Shown piece by piece: positions 54,149-63,415 of a stretch of 64,000 nucleotides of DNA. The stretch's first letter is position 1. Each line of letters begins with the position of its first letter. A program made the position numbers and the translations under genes. Source of the stretch: Gemmatimonadota bacterium (GTDB lineage Bacteria > Gemmatimonadota > Gemmatimonadetes > Gemmatimonadales > Gemmatimonadaceae); NCBI GenBank assembly GCA_016194585.1, contig JACQBG010000043.1, positions 1 to 64,000 on the forward strand, given 5' to 3'. The notes beneath the pieces were generated by a model that saw only the letters and a list, made by a program, of their open reading frames with translations, searched no databases and had not been told where the DNA came from.

Positions 54149-54182
54149 AAGAGGCGGCGTGCCACTCGGCACGCCGCCTCTT
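54149..54182. terminator. Terminator between convergent genes
   Basis: AAGAGGCGGCGTGCC and its exact complement form a 15-bp stem with an ACTC loop. On the plus strand it ends CTCTTTCGTT, giving a short T run. It lies 28 bases after the TonB-like stop and 23 bases from the end of the permease gene. Confidence 0.8.
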
Positions 54183-54205: not shown

Positions 54206-55426
54206 CTACTCGTAGCGGAGCGCGACGATCGGATCCATGCCCGCGGCGCGGCGCGCCGGGTACACACCGAAGACGACGCCGACGAATGCCGAGAATCCGA
54301 ACGCGATGGCGACCGATGACGCGCCGACCTCGGTGTTCCATCCCATCGTCTTCGTGAAGACCATCGCGCCGCCCGCACCGACGATGATGCCCAGCATGCC
54401 GCCGAGGAGGCAGAGCACGACGGCCTCGATGAGGAACTGGAAGAGGATGTTGAGCTTCGTCGCGCCGAGCGCCTTGCGGATGCCGATCTCCCGCGTGCGC
54501 TCGGTGACGGAGACGAGCATGATGTTCATGATGCCGATGCCGCCGACGAGGAGCGACACGGCGGCGATGCCGGCGAGCAGGAGGCTGAACACCTGCGTCG
54601 TCTCGCCGAGCGTGTTCAGGAAATCGGCCTGGTTGCGGATCTGGAAGTCATCGTCCTTGCCGGGGCGCAGGCGATGCTCGCGGCGCAGGATCTTCTGGAT
54701 GTCGGCCATCGTCTCGGGGATCTCCTCCTCCGACGGCGCGAGCACACTGATGGCGCGGATGCGGTTGTTGCCGAGCACGCGGAAGCGCGCCGTGGTGATC
54801 GGGATCAGGATCTGGTCGTCGGGGTTCTGGAACGCGTTCGTCTGTCCCTTCGACTTGTAGACCCCGACGACGGTGAACTGGATGCCGCGGATGCGGATCG
54901 TCTCGCCGAGCATGGCTTCGGGCGTCTGGAGTCCGAGGTTCTCGACGACGGCCGGTCCGACGACGGCGACCCGCTGCCGCGTCTGGTCCTCGGCGTTGGT
55001 GAAGAATCGCCCGACCTGCATCTCGTACTTGCGGACCTCGGGGTAGTTCGACGTGACGCCGACGATCTGCGTGCTCGTGTTCTTGTTGAGGTACTGCACC
55101 TGCAGCTGTCCCGACATCTCCGGCTGCACGGCGGCGATGTGCTCGCCGCGATCCTTGAGGGCGGTGGCATCGTCGATGATCAGTCGTGCGCCGCCGCCGC
55201 CGGTGCGCACGCCGCCGAACATGGCCTGGCCGGGCATGACGGTCAGCAACGTCGTGCCGAGGGCGGCGATGCGATCGTTCACCTGTTTCTGTGCGCCCTT
55301 GCCGAGGGCGACCACGGCGATGACCGCCGCCACGCCGATGACGATGCCGAGCATCGTGAGCAGCGAGCGCAGCTTGTTCGCGCGGAGGGCGCCGAGCGCG
55401 ACGCGGATCGTCTCGCCGAACAGCAT
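54206..55426 (-). CDS. MacB-type ABC transporter permease (no ATPase domain)
   Basis: 406 residues. TM1 is at about 20-40, then a large periplasmic MacB core domain (45-265) and three C-terminal spans (about 283-310, 335-360, 370-393). The FtsX/MacB signature SVTERTREIGIRKALGA is present. MacB-family proteins are mechanotransmitters that push substrates out through an adaptor and TolC. The ATP-binding half found fused or adjacent in typical systems is not encoded here. The start lies four bases after the adaptor stop. It is the last gene of a unit led by an ECF sigma factor. Confidence 0.88.
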   Translation of the reverse strand: MLFGETIRVALGALRANKLRSLLTMLGIVIGVAAVIAVVALGKGAQKQVNDRIAALGTTLLTVMPGQAMFGGVRTGGGGARLIIDDATALKDRGEHIAAVQPEMSGQLQVQYLNKNTSTQIVGVTSNYPEVRKYEMQVGRFFTNAEDQTRQRVAVVGPAVVENLGLQTPEAMLGETIRIRGIQFTVVGVYKSKGQTNAFQNPDDQILIPITTARFRVLGNNRIRAISVLAPSEEEIPETMADIQKILRREHRLRPGKDDDFQIRNQADFLNTLGETTQVFSLLLAGIAAVSLLVGGIGIMNIMLVSVTERTREIGIRKALGATKLNILFQFLIEAVVLCLLGGMLGIIVGAGGAMVFTKTMGWNTEVGASSVAIAFGFSAFVGVVFGVYPARRAAGMDPIVALRYE

Positions 55427-55429
55427 GCC

Positions 55430-57220
55430 TCAGCCCCCTCGTCCGCCGCGCCCGCCGCCGGGGCCGCCGAGCGGGCTTCCGGTCATCGACTTCATGCGGT
55501 CCTGCATCTCCTGTCGCTTGGCCTGCAGCGCGGCGGCGCTCATCATGGCGACCTTGTCGCCTTCGACGAGGCCGTCGAGCACTTCGGTGTAGTCGTAGTT
55601 CGCGACGCCGAGCCGGATGACCCTCGGCTCCCACGTGGTGCCCTTCTGCACGAACACGAGGCCGGTGCGGGTGCGCTGCCGTCCGCCGCCGCCCATGCCG
55701 CCAGCGCCCATCCCGCCGCCCTGCGTGCTGTTCTTGCTGGCCGGGAAGTTCGACATGCCCGCGCCACCGCGGCTCGCGCCCTGCGTGGCGCCACCGCGCG
55801 CGGCCATCGCGCCCTGCGCGCCCGCCGGCGCAGTCTGGCCGCCCATCCCGCCCCGCCCACCGCCGTTGCGGAAGCGGCAGGCCCGCGCGACCTGCGGATC
55901 GAGACCGAGCTCCTTGTACACGGCCTCGCTCTCGGCGCGCACCGCCTGACGGTCGGCGTTCGGGTCGCGCATCTTCGCCGAGATCTCCTCGAGCTTCTTC
56001 GCGGCCGCCGGCTTCTGCTTCATCGCGTCGTCGACCTTCTTGCAGTCGGCGTCGGTGACCTGCGGCATGTTGAAGCCGCCGCGCCCGCCGAAACCGCCGC
56101 GCTGCTGCGGGTCACCGCCCCCCTGGAACGCGAAGTCGAGCTCGCCACGCGATTGCTGTGTCGCGCCGCCGGGACCTCCCGGTCCGCCGGGGCCGGCCTG
56201 CGTCGATCCGCCGGCGCCGCCCTGCCCACCGCGGCCGTTGCCGCCACCCATCGCGGCGCGCAGCTGCGCCTGCACGCTGTCGGGGTTGAGCCCGAGCAGC
56301 GCCGCCGCCTGCCGCGCCTCGCGCGTGGAGCGGATCGCGTCGTTCGGCACCGCGATGGCACCCAGCCGTTCGTCGGTGAGCACCTGCACCTCGCCGTTCA
56401 TGCCGGGCTTCAGGAGGCCGTCGCTGTTGTCGAGCGAGACGAGCACCGGGAACATCGTGACGTTCTGCTGCACGGTCGCCTGCGGCTCGATCTTCTCGAC
56501 CGTGCCGCGGAAGGGACGGTCGGGGAACGCGTCGACGGTGACCTGCGACTGCTGCCCCGCCTGCACCATGCCGATGTCGGTCTCGTTCACGAGGGCGCGC
56601 GATCGGACCTTCGTGAGGTCGGCCATCGTGACGATCACCGTGCCGCCGTTCACCGACGTGCCGCCGGCCTGGATGACCTGGCCGAGCGAGACGGGCTTCG
56701 TGATGACGGTGCCCTCGGTGGTGGCGACGACCTTGGCGTCGATGAGCGCCTGCTTGGCGAGGTCGAGGTTCTGCTGGTTGCGCTGCAGCGACGCGTTGGC
56801 GTTCGCGAACGCCGTCTGCGCCGACTCGAGGTCGGGACGCGTGATGATGCGCTCGGCGAACAGCTGTTCCTGGCGCTTGAGCGCGGCCTGCGCGACGTCG
56901 AAGTTCGACTTCGACGCGGCGAGGTCGGCGGCGGCCTGCTTGTACTGGATCGTGATGTTCGTGGTGTCGATCTGCACGATGAGGTCGCCGGGGCGCACGT
57001 AGGTGCCGATCTCGACCGGCATCTTCATGACCTGGCCCGACGCGGTCTTCGACTTCACCTCGATGATGTTGATCGGCTCGATGATCCCCGTCGCCTCGGC
57101 CGTGACGATGATGTCGCGCCGTTGGATGGTGGCCGTCGGGATCACGGCGGCCTTCGTGTCGGCCTTGCCGCAGGCCGCGGCCACGGTGGCAAGGGCAACG
57201 AGCAGGAACGTGCGGTTCAC
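55430..57220 (-). CDS. MacA-like periplasmic adaptor with a large inserted domain
   Basis: 596 residues. GTG at 57220 with GGAGT upstream gives a lipoprotein signal (VAAACG, Cys17). Beta-barrel, lipoyl (SGQVMKMPVEIGTYVRPGD) and helical hairpin (90-165) regions are those of membrane fusion proteins. Between VPNDAIR (291-297) and GLVFVQKG (520-527) the usual short turn is replaced by about 220 residues. These comprise Gly/Gln-rich flanks around a helical part (385-450) holding two Cys (393 and 448). The tail is also Gly-rich. A GTG at 57277 overlapping the tolC-like stop is an alternative start. Confidence 0.85.
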   Translation of the reverse strand: MNRTFLLVALATVAAACGKADTKAAVIPTATIQRRDIIVTAEATGIIEPINIIEVKSKTASGQVMKMPVEIGTYVRPGDLIVQIDTTNITIQYKQAAADLAASKSNFDVAQAALKRQEQLFAERIITRPDLESAQTAFANANASLQRNQQNLDLAKQALIDAKVVATTEGTVITKPVSLGQVIQAGGTSVNGGTVIVTMADLTKVRSRALVNETDIGMVQAGQQSQVTVDAFPDRPFRGTVEKIEPQATVQQNVTMFPVLVSLDNSDGLLKPGMNGEVQVLTDERLGAIAVPNDAIRSTREARQAAALLGLNPDSVQAQLRAAMGGGNGRGGQGGAGGSTQAGPGGPGGPGGATQQSRGELDFAFQGGGDPQQRGGFGGRGGFNMPQVTDADCKKVDDAMKQKPAAAKKLEEISAKMRDPNADRQAVRAESEAVYKELGLDPQVARACRFRNGGGRGGMGGQTAPAGAQGAMAARGGATQGASRGGAGMSNFPASKNSTQGGGMGAGGMGGGGRQRTRTGLVFVQKGTTWEPRVIRLGVANYDYTEVLDGLVEGDKVAMMSAAALQAKRQEMQDRMKSMTGSPLGGPGGGRGGRGG

Positions 57221-57273
57221 GGCGGACTCCGTCAGGAGGCGAGAGATCGAGTGCGGGTGCGTCGTCACGGAGG

Positions 57274-58581
57274 TCACCGCAGGTCGCGGCCGACGAGGGC
57301 CTCGACCTGGGCCTTCGCGGTGCGTGCGTCGAAGCGCGCCTGGATGAGCGCGGCGCGGGCGGCGTCGAGCGTCGACTCCGACGTGAGCACGTCGAGCAAC
57401 GTCGAGGCACCGAGGTTGTAGCGCTGCTTCTGCACGCGGAGGTCCTCGTCGGCCGAGGCGATCGTGACGAGCTGGATCGCGACGCGCTCCTGCGCGGTGC
57501 GCAGCGTGCCGATGAGTTGGGTGAGCTGCTGCTGCTGGCCGAGGCGCACGTCCTTGTACGTCGCTTCGGCGTTGTCCTCGTTCACCCGCGCGACGGTGAG
57601 GTTCTGCTCACGCGAGTAGTTGTTGAAGAGCGGGTACGAGAAGTTGAAGCTCAGGTTGGTGCTCGACGAGGTCGGACCGCCGCCCCACGTGAAGCGGTCG
57701 TTCGAGTTGTTCAGGTTGTCGCGGAACGCGGCCGTGAGGGTCGGCAGGTAGGGCGTGCTCGCGGCCTGGTGGGCCGATCGCGCGGCGGCCAACTGGGCCG
57801 CGGCCTGGCGCACGGAGGGCCCCTCGTCGGCGTAACGCGCGAGCGCCACGCTGTCGATGACGACGTTGCCGATGTCGGCCGTGTCGGCGGCGACGGCGGT
57901 GACCTGCGTCGTGGAACCGATGAGGCGCGTCAGCGAGGCGTTGGCGACGCGGACGTTGTTCTGCGCCGTGAGGATCGAGAGGCGGGCGTTGGCGACCTGG
58001 ATGGCGGCGCGGAGCGAATCCGACCGCGTCGCCGTGCCGGCGACCACCTTGAGCTGCGCGACCTTGAGATTCTCCACCGCCTGCTCGAGCTGGCGGTTGG
58101 CGGCCGACTCCGACTCGCGCGCGGCGAGCACGGCGTAGTACTGCTGCTTGACGTTGAGGGCGACGTTGTAGCGCGCGTTCACCTCGTTGGCGACGAACGC
58201 GTCGACGTTGGCGTTGGCGGCCTTGTAGTTGTACCAGCGCTGCCCGCCGTCGAAGAGCTGCAGGTTCATGCTGTAGCCCTTCGAGTAGTTCCAGGCGTCG
58301 CCCTTGAACGGCACGAGAGCGCCCTGGAAGAACGTCGTGCCCCCCGACTGGGCCGCCGTGCCGGTGAGGTTGAGGCTTGGGATGTATTGCGAGAGCGCGA
58401 AGCGCACCCCGGCGTCGCCCGTGCGGAGCGCGTTGCGCGCCTGCACCGTCGACGGGGCATTCTGCTGCGCGAGCCGCACCGCTTCGTCGAGCGAGACCGC
58501 GCGCGGCTCGCCCGTCTGGGCCACGGCGAGGGCCGGAACGAGCGCGAGCCCGGCGGAAAGACGGCGGAAACCAACCTTCAT
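57274..58581 (-). CDS. TolC-family outer membrane efflux protein
   Basis: 435 residues with a signal peptide (1-22). The OEP domain repeats are visible as two halves of long helices (LNVKQQYYAVLAARESESAAN; QKQRYNLGASTLLDVLTSES) with the beta segments LSFNFSYPLFNN and MNLQLFDGGQ. It would form the outer-membrane channel for the adaptor and permease downstream. GGAGAAGAA precedes the ATG, which overlaps the stop of the Spy-like gene (ATGA). Confidence 0.9.
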   Translation of the reverse strand: MKVGFRRLSAGLALVPALAVAQTGEPRAVSLDEAVRLAQQNAPSTVQARNALRTGDAGVRFALSQYIPSLNLTGTAAQSGGTTFFQGALVPFKGDAWNYSKGYSMNLQLFDGGQRWYNYKAANANVDAFVANEVNARYNVALNVKQQYYAVLAARESESAANRQLEQAVENLKVAQLKVVAGTATRSDSLRAAIQVANARLSILTAQNNVRVANASLTRLIGSTTQVTAVAADTADIGNVVIDSVALARYADEGPSVRQAAAQLAAARSAHQAASTPYLPTLTAAFRDNLNNSNDRFTWGGGPTSSSTNLSFNFSYPLFNNYSREQNLTVARVNEDNAEATYKDVRLGQQQQLTQLIGTLRTAQERVAIQLVTIASADEDLRVQKQRYNLGASTLLDVLTSESTLDAARAALIQARFDARTAKAQVEALVGRDLR

Positions 58582-58946
58582 TTCTTCTCCTGGCGCAGCG
58601 CCTGCTGGCGCTCGCGCTGCATCTGGTCGTAGATGGCCTGCTGCTGCGGCGTCAACAACTTCGCGATCCGCTGCCGCGCTTCGCTGCTCACGGAATCGAG
58701 CGCGGGGCGGAGCGGCGCGAGGATCGAGTCCTGCCGGTGGTTGCGGTCGTCGTAGATGCGCGACGCCGAGTCGCGCTGCGCGGGCGAGAGGCCGAGCCGG
58801 TCGAACACGCGCTTGCGCATCGCCATCTGGTCCCACCACGCCGGCTGGGCGCGCACCACCAGGCGGTCGATGGAGATGCCGATCGCGGCGCCGGCGAGCG
58901 CCGCGCCCAAGTAGAATGCGAGCGCGAGGCTCTTCGTCCGGGACAT
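58578..58946 (-). CDS. Spy/CpxP-like periplasmic protein
   Basis: 122 residues. One N-terminal hydrophobic anchor or signal (7-27) is followed by a helical, charged body with RLGLSPAQRDSASRIYDDRN and KLLTPQQQAIYDQMQRER. The LTPxQ-type repeats and size match Spy/CpxP/CnrX-like proteins that bind unfolded proteins or metals in the periplasm and often modulate stress sensors. It lies between the anti-sigma gene and the TolC-like gene and so may report envelope damage to the sigma system. Confidence 0.75.
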   Translation of the reverse strand: MSRTKSLALAFYLGAALAGAAIGISIDRLVVRAQPAWWDQMAMRKRVFDRLGLSPAQRDSASRIYDDRNHRQDSILAPLRPALDSVSSEARQRIAKLLTPQQQAIYDQMQRERQQALRQEKK

Positions 58947-58958
58947 GGCGTGCCTGGG

Positions 58959-59330
58959 CTAGTGGCCGGTGAGGATGCGGACGTTCGTCTGCTGCTCGGT
59001 CAACCGCTCGCGCGCGGCAAGCGTCGGCGCGTCGATCGTCGTCGGGTCGACCACCGTCTCGTACTCGGCGCGCGCCATCTGCGTCTGCGTACGGAGCAAC
59101 AGCGTACCGGCGACGATCACGGCGATGCCCGCGGCGACGAGGCCCACGCGCAGCCATGCGGCCGGCACGGCCCACCACGCGTCCCCGTCCTCCGACGCCA
59201 ACCGGTCGAGGATCCGGCGCTCGAGGAAGCTCCAATACGCCGTATCCGACGGTGGCGCGTAGATCGCGCGCAGCGTCTGGGTCAGCTCGTCGTCGCGCAC
59301 GAGCTCGAGGTTGCGGATGTCGTCCGTCAT
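58959..59330 (-). CDS. Probable anti-sigma factor, single membrane span
   Basis: 123 residues. A cytoplasmic N-terminal part (1-58, with the helix ELTQTLRAIYAPPSDTAYWSFL) is followed by one membrane span at 63-79 and a short outer part. No zinc HxxxCxxC motif is present. The position directly after an ECF sigma gene, with ATGA overlap, and the topology make an anti-sigma role likely. I infer this from context rather than from a recognised family. Confidence 0.65.
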   Translation of the reverse strand: MTDDIRNLELVRDDELTQTLRAIYAPPSDTAYWSFLERRILDRLASEDGDAWWAVPAAWLRVGLVAAGIAVIVAGTLLLRTQTQMARAEYETVVDPTTIDAPTLAARERLTEQQTNVRILTGH

Positions 59331-59932
59331 AGTTCGCTCCTCACTGATCCGAGCACGGCACGCAGGGCCGAGCGCGCGTAATGCAGGTCCGACCGGGCCG
59401 TCCCCTCGGGAATTCCGAGCATCCGGCCGATCTCCGCGTGCCGAAAACCTTCCACGTCATGCAACACGATCACGGCGCGCTGCCGCGCCGGCAGCTGCCC
59501 CAGCGCCGCCTCCAACCGGTGGCGCAGTTCGCTGCTCTCCGCCGGATCGCGGAACGGCGAAGCCACCGTCTCCGGCAACTCGTCCGCGTCGCGTACCTTG
59601 CGCCGCCGCGTGATGTCGAGCGCCGCGTTCGCGACGATCCGATGCAACCACGCGCCGAACGCCTGGTCCGGCAGGAACCGGTGGAGGGCACGGTACGCGT
59701 GCAGGAATGCTTCCTGCACCGCGTCCTCCGCGTCCTCGTGGTTCACGACGATGGCGCGAGCCACCGCGTACGCGCGTCGCTGGTGCGTGCGCACCAACTG
59801 GGAGAACGCCTCGCGTTCTCCCCGCTGGGCTGCCAGCACCAGCGCCCGTTCGTCGGACGGCAGGTCAGCCACGGCCGGAGCCATCGCTGCCTGCCACCGG
59901 CGATCCCTCTGCGGACGCGCCACGGCGGTCAT
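59327..59932 (-). CDS. ECF-type RNA polymerase sigma factor
   Basis: 201 residues with sigma regions 2 (EDAEDAVQEAFLHAYRALHRF, about 65-90) and 4 (LPARQRAVIVLHDVEGFRHAEIGRMLGIPEGTARS, about 143-178). Region 3 is absent, as in ECF factors. It presumably directs transcription of its own operon down to the permease gene. GTGAGG upstream of the ATG at 59932 supports the start; a second Met at residue 17 is possible. Its stop overlaps the anti-sigma start. Confidence 0.92.
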   Translation of the reverse strand: MTAVARPQRDRRWQAAMAPAVADLPSDERALVLAAQRGEREAFSQLVRTHQRRAYAVARAIVVNHEDAEDAVQEAFLHAYRALHRFLPDQAFGAWLHRIVANAALDITRRRKVRDADELPETVASPFRDPAESSELRHRLEAALGQLPARQRAVIVLHDVEGFRHAEIGRMLGIPEGTARSDLHYARSALRAVLGSVRSEL

Positions 59933-60006
59933 GCCATTGCCTCACCAGTCACACTCCAAGTACGCGGTCTCGGGTCCGACCGTTGGGCATCGCGCCGAGG
60001 GGGGCG

Positions 60007-60606
60007 TCACGGCGCGACGGGGCCCGCGAGTCCCAACAGCGCCGCGCGCGCGCGCATCGCCTCGATCACGAAGGTGATGTGCGCGTCCAGATCGACCTCG
60101 AGTTCCGCGGCGCCGAGGAGCACGTCCTCCCGGTTCACGCCGCGCGCGAAGGCCTTGTCCTTCATCTTCTTCTTGACACTCGAGACCTCGAGATCGTTCA
60201 CGCTCCGGGAGGGACGGACCAGCGCGCAGGCCGTCACCATGCCGCACAGCTCGTCGACGGCGAACAGCGCGCGCGCCATCCGCGTCGTCCGCGCCACGCC
60301 GGTGTAGTCGGCGTGCCCGAGGATCGCGTCGAGCACGTCCTCCGGGTAGCCGAGCGACCGGAGCAGGCGCACCCCCTCGGCCGGGTGCTCGGCATCGGCC
60401 GCGCGCTCCGCGTTCGGGAACCGCTCGTAGTCGAAGTCGTGCATCAACCCGGCGAGCCCCCAGCGCTCCACGTCCTCGCCGAACCGCTCGGCGTAGGCGC
60501 GCATGGCGCCCTCGACGGCGAGCATGTGCTTCCGCAGTGAATCGCTGGCGGTCCACTCTTCCATGAGGGCGAGCGCGTCGGCCCGCGTCGGGAGCGCGTG
60601 GGGCAT
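60007..60606 (-). CDS. HD-domain phosphohydrolase
   Basis: 199 residues. The metal-binding H...HD...D set is visible: His in LRKHMLAVEGAM, HD in GLMHDFDYERFP, further His in EHPAEG and GHADY, and Asp in FAVDELCG. Small HD proteins of this kind hydrolyse nucleotides or phosphate esters; the substrate is unknown. The start MPHALPTRADAL at 60606 is preferred over one 14 codons upstream. A TAGATT at 60715-60720 (minus strand) may be its promoter, giving a leader of about 100 bases. Confidence 0.8.
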   Translation of the reverse strand: MPHALPTRADALALMEEWTASDSLRKHMLAVEGAMRAYAERFGEDVERWGLAGLMHDFDYERFPNAERAADAEHPAEGVRLLRSLGYPEDVLDAILGHADYTGVARTTRMARALFAVDELCGMVTACALVRPSRSVNDLEVSSVKKKMKDKAFARGVNREDVLLGAAELEVDLDAHITFVIEAMRARAALLGLAGPVAP

Positions 60607-60732
60607 GGGGACCGGGGAAAGGCGTGGATGGACCGGGCCGCTCCGCACCAGATCATCCGTCCGTGGTTCGCGACAGCAGCGGTCGGCGTCGTGGAGCGGC
60701 CGGCGGGAACCGGGAATCTAGCGCCGGCCCGT

Positions 60733-62331
60733 TCAGTGCGCGTCGGCCTGGGCCGTGATGCGGCCGCGGCCGGTGCGCCACAGCGCCATCAACGGGATCG
60801 CCGCCAGCAGGGCGAGCCCGCTGAGCAGGTAGATCCGCGAGAAGGCGAGGACGCTCGCCTGCGCGCCGATCGTGCGGTCGAGGATCGCGTACGCACCTTG
60901 CTTCGCGACGAACGGGTTCATGCCGTGCGCGGCGAGTCCGCGGCGGAACGTCTCGAGACGGGCGAGCGCGTCGGGGGTCGTCACCGAGAGATGCTCGGTG
61001 AGCACGGCCTTCTTCTCCTTGGTGAACCGCGAGAGCATCGTCGCCATCACGGCGATCCCCACCGAACCGCCGAGCTGCCGCATCAGGTTGAACAGTCCAG
61101 TCCCCTGCGCGAGGTCGCGCGGCGCCACCTCGGCGAGCGCGATGCTGTTGAGCGGGATGAAGATCAGCCCGAGCGCGACCCCGCGGATGACGAGCGGCCA
61201 GAACACGTCGTCCTTCCCGCTGTCGAGCGAGAGTCCGGCGAGCTGCCACATGCACACGGCGAAGAGCACGGCGCCGACCACGATCACCGGGCGCCCGTCG
61301 GGGATGACGCGCAGCTTGCGCCCGAGGATCGCCATCGTGAACGCCGAGGCGATGGCGCCCGGGAGGATCACCATGCCGGTCTGGTTCGCGGTGAAGTTGT
61401 GCAGCTGCTGCAGGAACACCGGCAGCACGAACACGCTGCCGAAGAGCGCGAAGCCGAGCAGCGCGCCCATCACCACGCCGGTCGCGAGTTGCCGGTCGCG
61501 CAGGATGTGGAAGTCGATCACCGGCTCGTCGGTGCTCAATTCGTGCAGCACGAGCCAGACGAACGAGACGAGCGAGACGATGCCGAGCGACGTCACGAAC
61601 GGCGACTCGAACCAGTCGTACCGCTCACCGCGTTCGAGCATCCACTGCAGCGAGCCGACGGCCACCGTCATGAGGCCGATGCCGAGCCAGTCGACCTTCT
61701 CGGCGCGCTCCTGGTGGATGGAATCGCGCACGTACGACCAGGTGAGCACGGCCGCGACGATGCCGAGGGGCAGGTTGATGTAGAAGATCCAGGGCCAGTT
61801 CCAGTTGTCGACGATGAAGCCGCCGAGCGTGGGGCCGAGCGTCGGGCCGACCATCACCCCCACGCCGAACATCGCCTGCCCGATGCCCACCTCGTGGGGC
61901 GGGAACGCCTCCCACAACGTGGACTGCGCGGTGGAGAGCAGGGCGCCGCCGCCGATCCCCTGCACGACGCGCCACAGCACGAGTCCCTGGAGCGTCGTCG
62001 CGGCGCCGCAGAACATCGAGGCGACGATGAACAGCAGGATCGACCCCGTGAGGTAGCGGCGCCGGCCGAAATAGGCCGACAGCCACGACGACATCGGGAT
62101 GACGATGACGTTCGCGATGATGTACCCGACGCTCACCCACGAGATCTCGTCGAGCGTCGCGCCGAGGTTCCCCATCATGTGCGGGATGGCGACGTTCACG
62201 ATCGACGTGTCGACGAGCTCGAGCGTCGCCGCGAGTGTCACGGCGATGGCGATGAGGTACTTGTAGCGGTATCGGTCGGCGTCGTCGACCGCCGCCGCGG
62301 TCGACGCGGCGGAAAGCACGGCGGTGGCCAT
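60733..62331 (-). CDS. DHA2-family MFS multidrug efflux pump (EmrB-like)
   Basis: 532 residues with 14 predicted membrane spans. Motif D1 appears as LELVDTSIVNVAIPHM and the A-motif region as SSWLSAYFGRRRY. It exports lipophilic compounds by proton antiport through a tripartite EmrA-TolC-type channel. The HlyD-like gene ends seven bases upstream. No regulator gene is seen within the window, so control may lie beyond the right end. Confidence 0.92.
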   Translation of the reverse strand: MATAVLSAASTAAAVDDADRYRYKYLIAIAVTLAATLELVDTSIVNVAIPHMMGNLGATLDEISWVSVGYIIANVIVIPMSSWLSAYFGRRRYLTGSILLFIVASMFCGAATTLQGLVLWRVVQGIGGGALLSTAQSTLWEAFPPHEVGIGQAMFGVGVMVGPTLGPTLGGFIVDNWNWPWIFYINLPLGIVAAVLTWSYVRDSIHQERAEKVDWLGIGLMTVAVGSLQWMLERGERYDWFESPFVTSLGIVSLVSFVWLVLHELSTDEPVIDFHILRDRQLATGVVMGALLGFALFGSVFVLPVFLQQLHNFTANQTGMVILPGAIASAFTMAILGRKLRVIPDGRPVIVVGAVLFAVCMWQLAGLSLDSGKDDVFWPLVIRGVALGLIFIPLNSIALAEVAPRDLAQGTGLFNLMRQLGGSVGIAVMATMLSRFTKEKKAVLTEHLSVTTPDALARLETFRRGLAAHGMNPFVAKQGAYAILDRTIGAQASVLAFSRIYLLSGLALLAAIPLMALWRTGRGRITAQADAH

Positions 62332-62338
62332 CAGCGGA

Positions 62339-63415
62339 TCACTGCGTGGCGATGTGCACGGTGACGCTCATCCCCGGACGCAGCGGACGCCCGGCGCCGC
62401 ACCCCTTCGTCACCTGCACCCGCACCGGCACGCGCTGCACGACCTTCGTGAAGTTGCCGGTCGAGTTGTCGGGGGGCAGCAGCGCGAACCGCGCGCCCGT
62501 CGCCGCGCTCAGGCTCTCCACCTTCCCCTCGGCGTCGCAGCCGGGGTAGGAATCGACCTCGATCGCCGCGATCTGGCCGACCTTCACGTCGGCGAGCTGC
62601 GTCTCCTTCAGGTTGGCGCTGATGTACACGCTCGTGTCGGCGACGATCGTGAGCAGCGGCTGTCCCGGCTGCACGAGTTGCCCGACCTCGACCTGCTTGC
62701 GGCTCACCGACCCGGTCACCGGCGCCACGACGTGCGTGTACGAGAGCTGCAGCGCGGCGTTCTCCCTGGCGGCGCGGGCGCCGGCGAGGCGCGCCTGCGC
62801 GAGCTTCTCCCCGGCCTGCGCGCCGGCGAGCTGCGCCGTCGCGGCGGCGGCCTGCCGCTCCGCGGCCACGAGCGCGGCGTTCGCCTGGTCGAACGCCGCC
62901 TGCGACGCGTCGAGCTGCTGCCGCGACACGATCTGCTTCGCCACGAGTTCCTTCATGCGGGCGAGGTCGGCCGACGCCTTCGCCTGCGCGGCCCGCGCCG
63001 ACTGGATCTGCGCGTCGATCACGAGCCGCTGGCTCTGCGCGCCGCTCACCGCGGCCTGCGCCTGGCCGGCGCCGCCCTTGTCGCCCGCCGCCGCGGCCGC
63101 CGCGGCGAGCTCCGCCTCGGCCTGCGCGAGACGCACCTGGTACTCGCTGCTGTCGATCTGCACGAGCAGGTCGCCGCTCTTCACGAGCTGGTTCTCGACG
63201 GGACGCACCGCCGTCACGAAGCCGCCGACCTTGGCGAGCACGGGCACGATCGTGCCGTCGACCTGCGCGTTGTCGGTGGTGACGTGCACCCGGTTGTAGA
63301 GGATCGTCTTGCCGCCCCAGAGGAGGGCGGCGATGGCCGCGACGGCGAGCACGGGAAGCGCCTTGTTGCGCGAGCCGCCGGCGGCGGGCGTATCGGGATT
63401 CATCGGGGAAGCCAT
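62339..63415 (-). CDS. HlyD/EmrA-family membrane fusion protein
   Basis: 358 residues with one N-terminal membrane span at about 18-36. The lipoyl half-motif VENQLVKSGDLLVQID, a long Ala/Gln-rich helical hairpin (about 85-190) and VTGSVSRKQVEVGQLVQPG give the EmrA-type adaptor layout. It links the EmrB-like pump to a TolC-type channel, whose gene is directly upstream (35-base gap). Confidence 0.92.
   Translation of the reverse strand: MASPMNPDTPAAGGSRNKALPVLAVAAIAALLWGGKTILYNRVHVTTDNAQVDGTIVPVLAKVGGFVTAVRPVENQLVKSGDLLVQIDSSEYQVRLAQAEAELAAAAAAAGDKGGAGQAQAAVSGAQSQRLVIDAQIQSARAAQAKASADLARMKELVAKQIVSRQQLDASQAAFDQANAALVAAERQAAAATAQLAGAQAGEKLAQARLAGARAARENAALQLSYTHVVAPVTGSVSRKQVEVGQLVQPGQPLLTIVADTSVYISANLKETQLADVKVGQIAAIEVDSYPGCDAEGKVESLSAATGARFALLPPDNSTGNFTKVVQRVPVRVQVTKGCGAGRPLRPGMSVTVHIATQ

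Follow-up and report, generated by a model that had tools for sequence, protein, structure and literature searches.

The six genes at positions 54206–59932 of the window, which is the whole stretch of 64,000 nucleotides that was analysed, would code for an ECF-sigma-regulated, MacAB–TolC-like tripartite export machine that relies in trans on a motor ATPase, the gene of which is located on another contig of the same genome (C15:55585–56382). We give this reading a probability of about two in three. A wider proposal, which we favour with slightly less assurance, is that throughout the class a single MacB-clade ATPase serves as an interchangeable motor to two tripartite export loci that are regulated separately (the clusters have up to eight tandem permeases), its gene being retained in either locus and not lost from both. 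What we infer from the sequences is that the ATPase is physically shared, how the signal is relayed, and that the machine serves for export.

The window is part of contig C50 of an assembly of 3.34 Mb in 50 contigs (G000). The host is a soil-type bacterium of the Gemmatimonadaceae, and the best named match of the permease, L114, comes from the same family (81% identity).

A sigma-led operon without an ATPase gene

The features of the locus are the following.

54150–54181, strand not given: perfect 14-bp hairpin between convergent genes (−40.8 kcal/mol, z = −5.8)
54206–55426, minus strand: MacB-type permease (type VII ABC TMD) with no ATPase domain; Pfam MacB_PCD and FtsX
55430–57277, minus strand: MacA-like periplasmic adaptor, lipoprotein; Pfam HlyD_D23 and HlyD_3, NCBIfam RND_mfp and MacA
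57274–58581, minus strand: TolC-like outer membrane efflux protein; Pfam OEP, E = 1.2e-48
58578–58946, minus strand: candidate periplasmic sensor, Spy/CpxP/CnrX-like, membrane-anchored; profile match, LTXXQ/Metal_resist in orthologues, model
58959–59330, minus strand: candidate anti-sigma factor, single-pass membrane protein; position, one TM segment, conserved N-terminal motif (24 orthologues)
59327–59932, minus strand: ECF sigma factor; Pfam Sigma70_r2 and Sigma70_r4_2, conserved synteny
59961–59986, minus strand: ECF-type promoter ahead of the sigma gene, CCAACG-N16-CGTA; conserved, sole exact match in the window
60007–60648, minus strand: HD-domain protein gene; Pfam HD, upstream neighbour, outside the sigma promoter

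The first-pass annotation had described six tightly spaced genes on one strand, and this is indeed what is observed: gaps and overlaps do not exceed about 55 bases, the sigma and anti-sigma genes overlap by 4 bases, and the TolC gene overlaps the stop of the Spy-like gene. The identities that had been proposed for the sigma factor, the TolC-like protein, the adaptor and the permease are upheld by Pfam matches. The anti-sigma factor is a candidate: its position, its single TM segment and its conservation agree with the earlier call, but the protein matches no Pfam family. Similarly, the Spy-like call fails on the window sequence taken alone, which has no Pfam match, but it stands on a profile of 28 sequences, which matches Spy (3oeo, E = 1.1e-5) and CpxP (3itf, E = 0.0022); LTXXQ is detected in 19 of these 28 orthologues and Metal_resist in 10. 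The predicted model consists of a TM helix and three helices (pTM 0.50), and a Foldseek search with this helical model returned three hits, weak and unrelated.

The adaptor probably starts near 57220, at the lipoprotein start, the alternative being 57277. Ahead of its last domain it carries a Gly-rich insert some 200 residues long (window 55640–56320, minus strand), with a helical core containing two cysteines (DADCKK...ACRFR) that is conserved in most Gemmatimonadaceae; the inserts found in the adaptors of other families differ from it.

The terminator that had been placed at 54149 corresponds to the hairpin at 54150–54181, which is likely to mark the end of the operon; its U-tract is poor, which explains its absence from the output of a consensus terminator scan. 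The operon has no gene for an ABC ATPase, and no PF00005 match is listed on contig C50. Taken together, the gene spacing, the family matches, the features of the anti-sigma candidate and the hairpin confirm the original observation of an operon that lacks an ATPase.

The operon is probably driven by its own sigma factor, since the motif upstream of the sigma gene has the form of an ECF promoter. The motif, YCAAC[GA]-N16-CGTW, is conserved in 25 intergenic regions between the HD-domain and sigma genes of Gemmatimonadaceae, and its exact form occurs once in the window, for 0.40 occurrences expected. Conserved synteny and this conserved promoter thus support the idea, already put forward from the window alone, of a sigma-led tripartite unit without ATPase. 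As for the inducer, envelope damage is suggested by membership of the Spy/CnrX-like family only, and a metal or a drug signal would be equally possible.

The HD-domain gene is the immediate upstream neighbour of the sigma gene in almost every sigma-bearing locus of Gemmatimonadaceae and in the families f2 and f3. The promoter stands between this putative hydrolase gene and the sigma gene despite their conserved adjacency. Just upstream (60733–63415 and beyond, minus strand), the window encodes an EmrB-like MFS transporter and an EmrA-like adaptor; a TolC-like gene located past the end of the window (L081) lies beside these genes, so that a second tripartite exporter appears to be encoded next door.

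Placement of the ATPase gene in relatives

The same gene order, which the first-pass annotation had proposed to look for in related genomes, is found across the Gemmatimonadaceae, both within the genus and beyond it, and the ATPase is missing from every intact operon examined in this family (20+ genomes). Likewise, it is present in none of the f1 operons that could be mapped with their upstream sequence. Three loci (L060, L217 and L223) consist of TolC, MacA and permease only, with no sigma module detected. A random gene loss in this particular strain was considered and rejected, the whole family being devoid of the gene.

An ATPase gene at the same place in close relatives, which had been named as the sign of a loss here, does exist in the sister families f2 and f3, which belong to the same order, and also in f7, from another order; in all three its position is between TolC and MacA. 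The intact Gemmatimonadaceae operons examined have no such gene. Its presence in the sister families makes the lack of ATPase a lineage-specific state. The gene is also missing from the operons of f4, f10 and one of the two f5 genomes. Judging by this distribution, the ATPase-less state is old, stably inherited across the family and recurring in other orders, and is not the result of decay. In one f4 genome (G090, L294 749–2708), an ATPase gene is found downstream of the operon permease.

Most homologous permeases of other phyla are adjacent to an ATPase, and the usual order in these outgroups is MacA–ATPase–permease, from which the position in f2, f3 and f7 differs. A contig labelled Candidatus Eisenbacteria (L115 2385–7275) carries a TolC–MacA–permease set of Gemmatimonadaceae type (67% identity for the permease) with an ATPase upstream of TolC, which may reflect either transfer or misbinning.

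These genomes contain a second locus, in which TolC, MacA and ATPase genes are followed by a permease gene repeated two to eight times. In the genome under study it lies at C15:52.8–63.99 kb (L013) and comprises TolC, MacA, the ATPase and, in tandem, six or more genes for MacB-type permeases, the contig ending in the sixth; the cluster itself thus has one ATPase for many permeases. The ATPase at C15:55585–56382 shares 70% identity with the operonic ATPase of f2, and among the matches listed it is the only close MacB-clade ATPase of its own genome, the next one being at 48%. The suggestion that an orphan MacB-type ATPase might be found elsewhere in the genome was therefore right as to its existence, but the gene is not an orphan: it belongs to this second tripartite locus.

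The arrangement is reversed in f7: its sigma operon contains the ATPase gene, and its tandem clusters consist of TolC, MacA and two permeases, with no ATPase. This was checked in five full neighbourhoods (L258–L262), three of which come from single-contig genomes. In the f2 genome G031 (5 contigs, 99% complete), the ATPase is likewise located in the sigma operon only, and the four-permease cluster has none. In G035, the tandem ATPase is split by a frameshift (L195 8617–9284) and the ATPase of the sigma operon is intact; it may be a loss in progress or an assembly error.

We surveyed 149 genomes of the class, joining the loci by their coordinates and reading the ambiguous cases one by one. Both permease loci are visible in 103 genomes: the ATPase is in the tandem locus only in 49, in the operon only in 36, in both in 16, and 2 could not be assigned, one having an operonic ATPase fragment beside a run of Ns (G085) and the other being cut by a contig end. 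None of the 103 genomes was shown to have the ATPase at neither locus, and all 101 assigned genomes have it in at least one. As regards individual assemblies, G125 and G127 have split contigs and an operonic ATPase; in G152 the two loci both contain pieces of the ATPase gene, each interrupted where a contig ends, and the tandem cluster of G042 is also cut by a contig end.

On the permease tree, the state of the operon changes five times and that of the tandem locus three times, and the states cluster by family. Since placement follows family lines in this manner, the absence of genomes with neither gene is formally weak evidence, and an independent-pairs (phylogenetic sign) test on placement has no power.

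It may be asked whether the operon of this lineage ever had an ATPase, f2, f3 and f7 having gained theirs from the tandem cluster. Such a history, which would be compatible with sharing in trans, is a serious contender but in our opinion the less probable one. It accords with the position of the gene in these three families, which is unlike that of the outgroups, and the deep branching between operonic and tandem ATPases does not contradict it, since no order is preferred (AU p 0.17 and 0.14). However, the operonic ATPases of f2, f3 and f7, which occupy the same position, form one group on the ATPase tree (91/93), which favours an old duplicate followed by reciprocal loss in the other lineages.

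The permease and the probable source of its motor

The permease combines a periplasmic core of the MacB_PCD type (PF12704) with an FtsX-type TMD (PF02687) and has four TM helices. Its model can be superimposed on residues 266–664 of MacB from A. baumannii (5gko; Z 23.0, rmsd 3.8, 390 residues aligned), and it aligns over its length to LolCDE, MacB and related structures.

In MacB, the NBD is contacted by two coupling helices, of which the major lies between TM2 and TM3 and the minor is C-terminal (PMC5985334). Both are present in the window permease, where MNIMLVSVTERTREIGIRKALGAT and the C-terminal DPI-LR-E are conserved. Invariant columns of the major coupling region amount to 18 out of 26 in the 31 permeases that have no operonic ATPase, compared to 20 out of 26 in the 18 that have one; the minor coupling helix is likewise retained in the former, and most permeases of the tandem clusters that lack an ATPase have the same coupling motif. 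The conservation of these helices in the absence of an operonic ATPase indicates that selection has kept the NBD-docking surface. The motif is that of MacB proteins in general and does not identify the ATPase that docks.

This last point leaves room for another ABC ATPase of the genome, for example a promiscuous NBD of the LolD or YbbA type, to power the permease: the whole family has this type of coupling motif, and the genome has 48 PF00005 matches. We consider this improbable. The next ATPases are only about 48% identical, and those that were checked, on C37 and C16, adjoin their own permeases; moreover, this explanation does not account for the fact that a close-clade ATPase is kept in one locus whenever it is absent from the other.

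Even less probable, in our view, is an ATP-free unit in which the permease-like protein serves as a scaffold or a sensor for the MacA–TolC conduit. Operons devoid of ATPase in the whole family and in f4 and f10 are what it would predict, but the coupling helices, which are cytoplasmic and contact the NBD, are as conserved there as in the operons that have an ATPase. That the operon is a non-functional remnant left by the loss of the ATPase is very hard to maintain: some paralogous fragments are broken (C5 and L286), but the operon has intact reading frames, conserved synteny and promoter, and a permease whose identity is maintained at 60–95% across many genera.

Regarding paralogues, a second orphan MacB-type permease, 54% identical, is encoded at C18:92560–93774 (L011 6561–7775), and neither an adaptor nor an ATPase was detected near it; its counterparts in sister genomes are alone or accompanied by MacA only. 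At C5:64479–65212 (L012), a MacB-type permease is represented by fragments spread over several frames, which may be a pseudogene or result from sequencing errors.

We therefore return to an ATPase supplied in trans. The membrane-anchored Spy/CnrX-like protein would sense a periplasmic signal, upon which the anti-sigma factor would release the sigma factor, and the latter would activate the operon to which it belongs through the CAACG-N16-CGT promoter. The C15 ATPase, made from the tandem cluster, would dock on the permeases of that cluster and also on the permease of the sigma operon, by means of the intact major and minor coupling helices of the latter, and the resulting MacB-like machine would drive the MacA–TolC conduit of the sigma operon. 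A search for the sigma promoter motif ahead of the tandem ATPase cluster, where it would have linked the two regulons, did not find it, so that the supply of the motor would be constitutive or otherwise controlled.

Significance and comparison with known systems

Machines of the MacB family are usually considered to have a dedicated ATPase, either fused to the permease or encoded next door. Our literature search found no report of a shared ATPase in tripartite systems of the MacB fold, nor of this operon in Gemmatimonadota, which does not prove that none exists. If the motor is shared, the substrate range in the phylum can grow by the addition of permeases alone, pump units that lack an ATPase should not be annotated as broken, and the deletion of one gene could disarm several exporters. 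The lineages that are mirror images of each other offer a ready genetic test of this sharing.

Compared to MacAB–TolC, a type VII ABC system, the operon has the same components, namely an adaptor (HlyD_D23) and an outer-membrane channel (OEP) encoded alongside a MacB-fold permease with the PF12704 core and the coupling helices (PMC5985334). It differs in that the NBD is neither fused to the permease nor encoded in the same operon, as it is in MacAB–TolC, in that an ECF sigma factor is in control, and in the long Gly-rich insert of the adaptor.

The CnrYXH–CnrCBA system of Cupriavidus metallidurans comprises an ECF sigma factor, a membrane anti-sigma factor and a membrane-anchored periplasmic sensor of the Metal_resist/LTXXQ type, and these regulatory parts precede an outer-membrane protein, an adaptor and an RND pump. 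The putative regulatory parts of the sigma operon resemble these, a resemblance that is supported by the Metal_resist matches of the orthologues. Its pump, however, is of the MacB type and not RND, and the gene order is different.

The duplicated orphan permeases called ADOP (TIGR03434) are also MacB-like and not paired with a local ATPase. The permease of the sigma operon shares this trait, but it is a single permease of 406 residues, whereas the ADOP model is that of a duplicated permease and has 803 positions; membership was rejected on the score, 122.3 bits for an NCBIfam cut-off of 622.3.

Last, a single ATPase, MsmK, energises several ABC systems encoded elsewhere in streptococci (PMC4519317). 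MsmK serves carbohydrate importers and not a tripartite system of the MacB fold (PMC4519317), but the principle of one ATPase for several loci would be the same, although in our case the sharing is deduced from genomics only.
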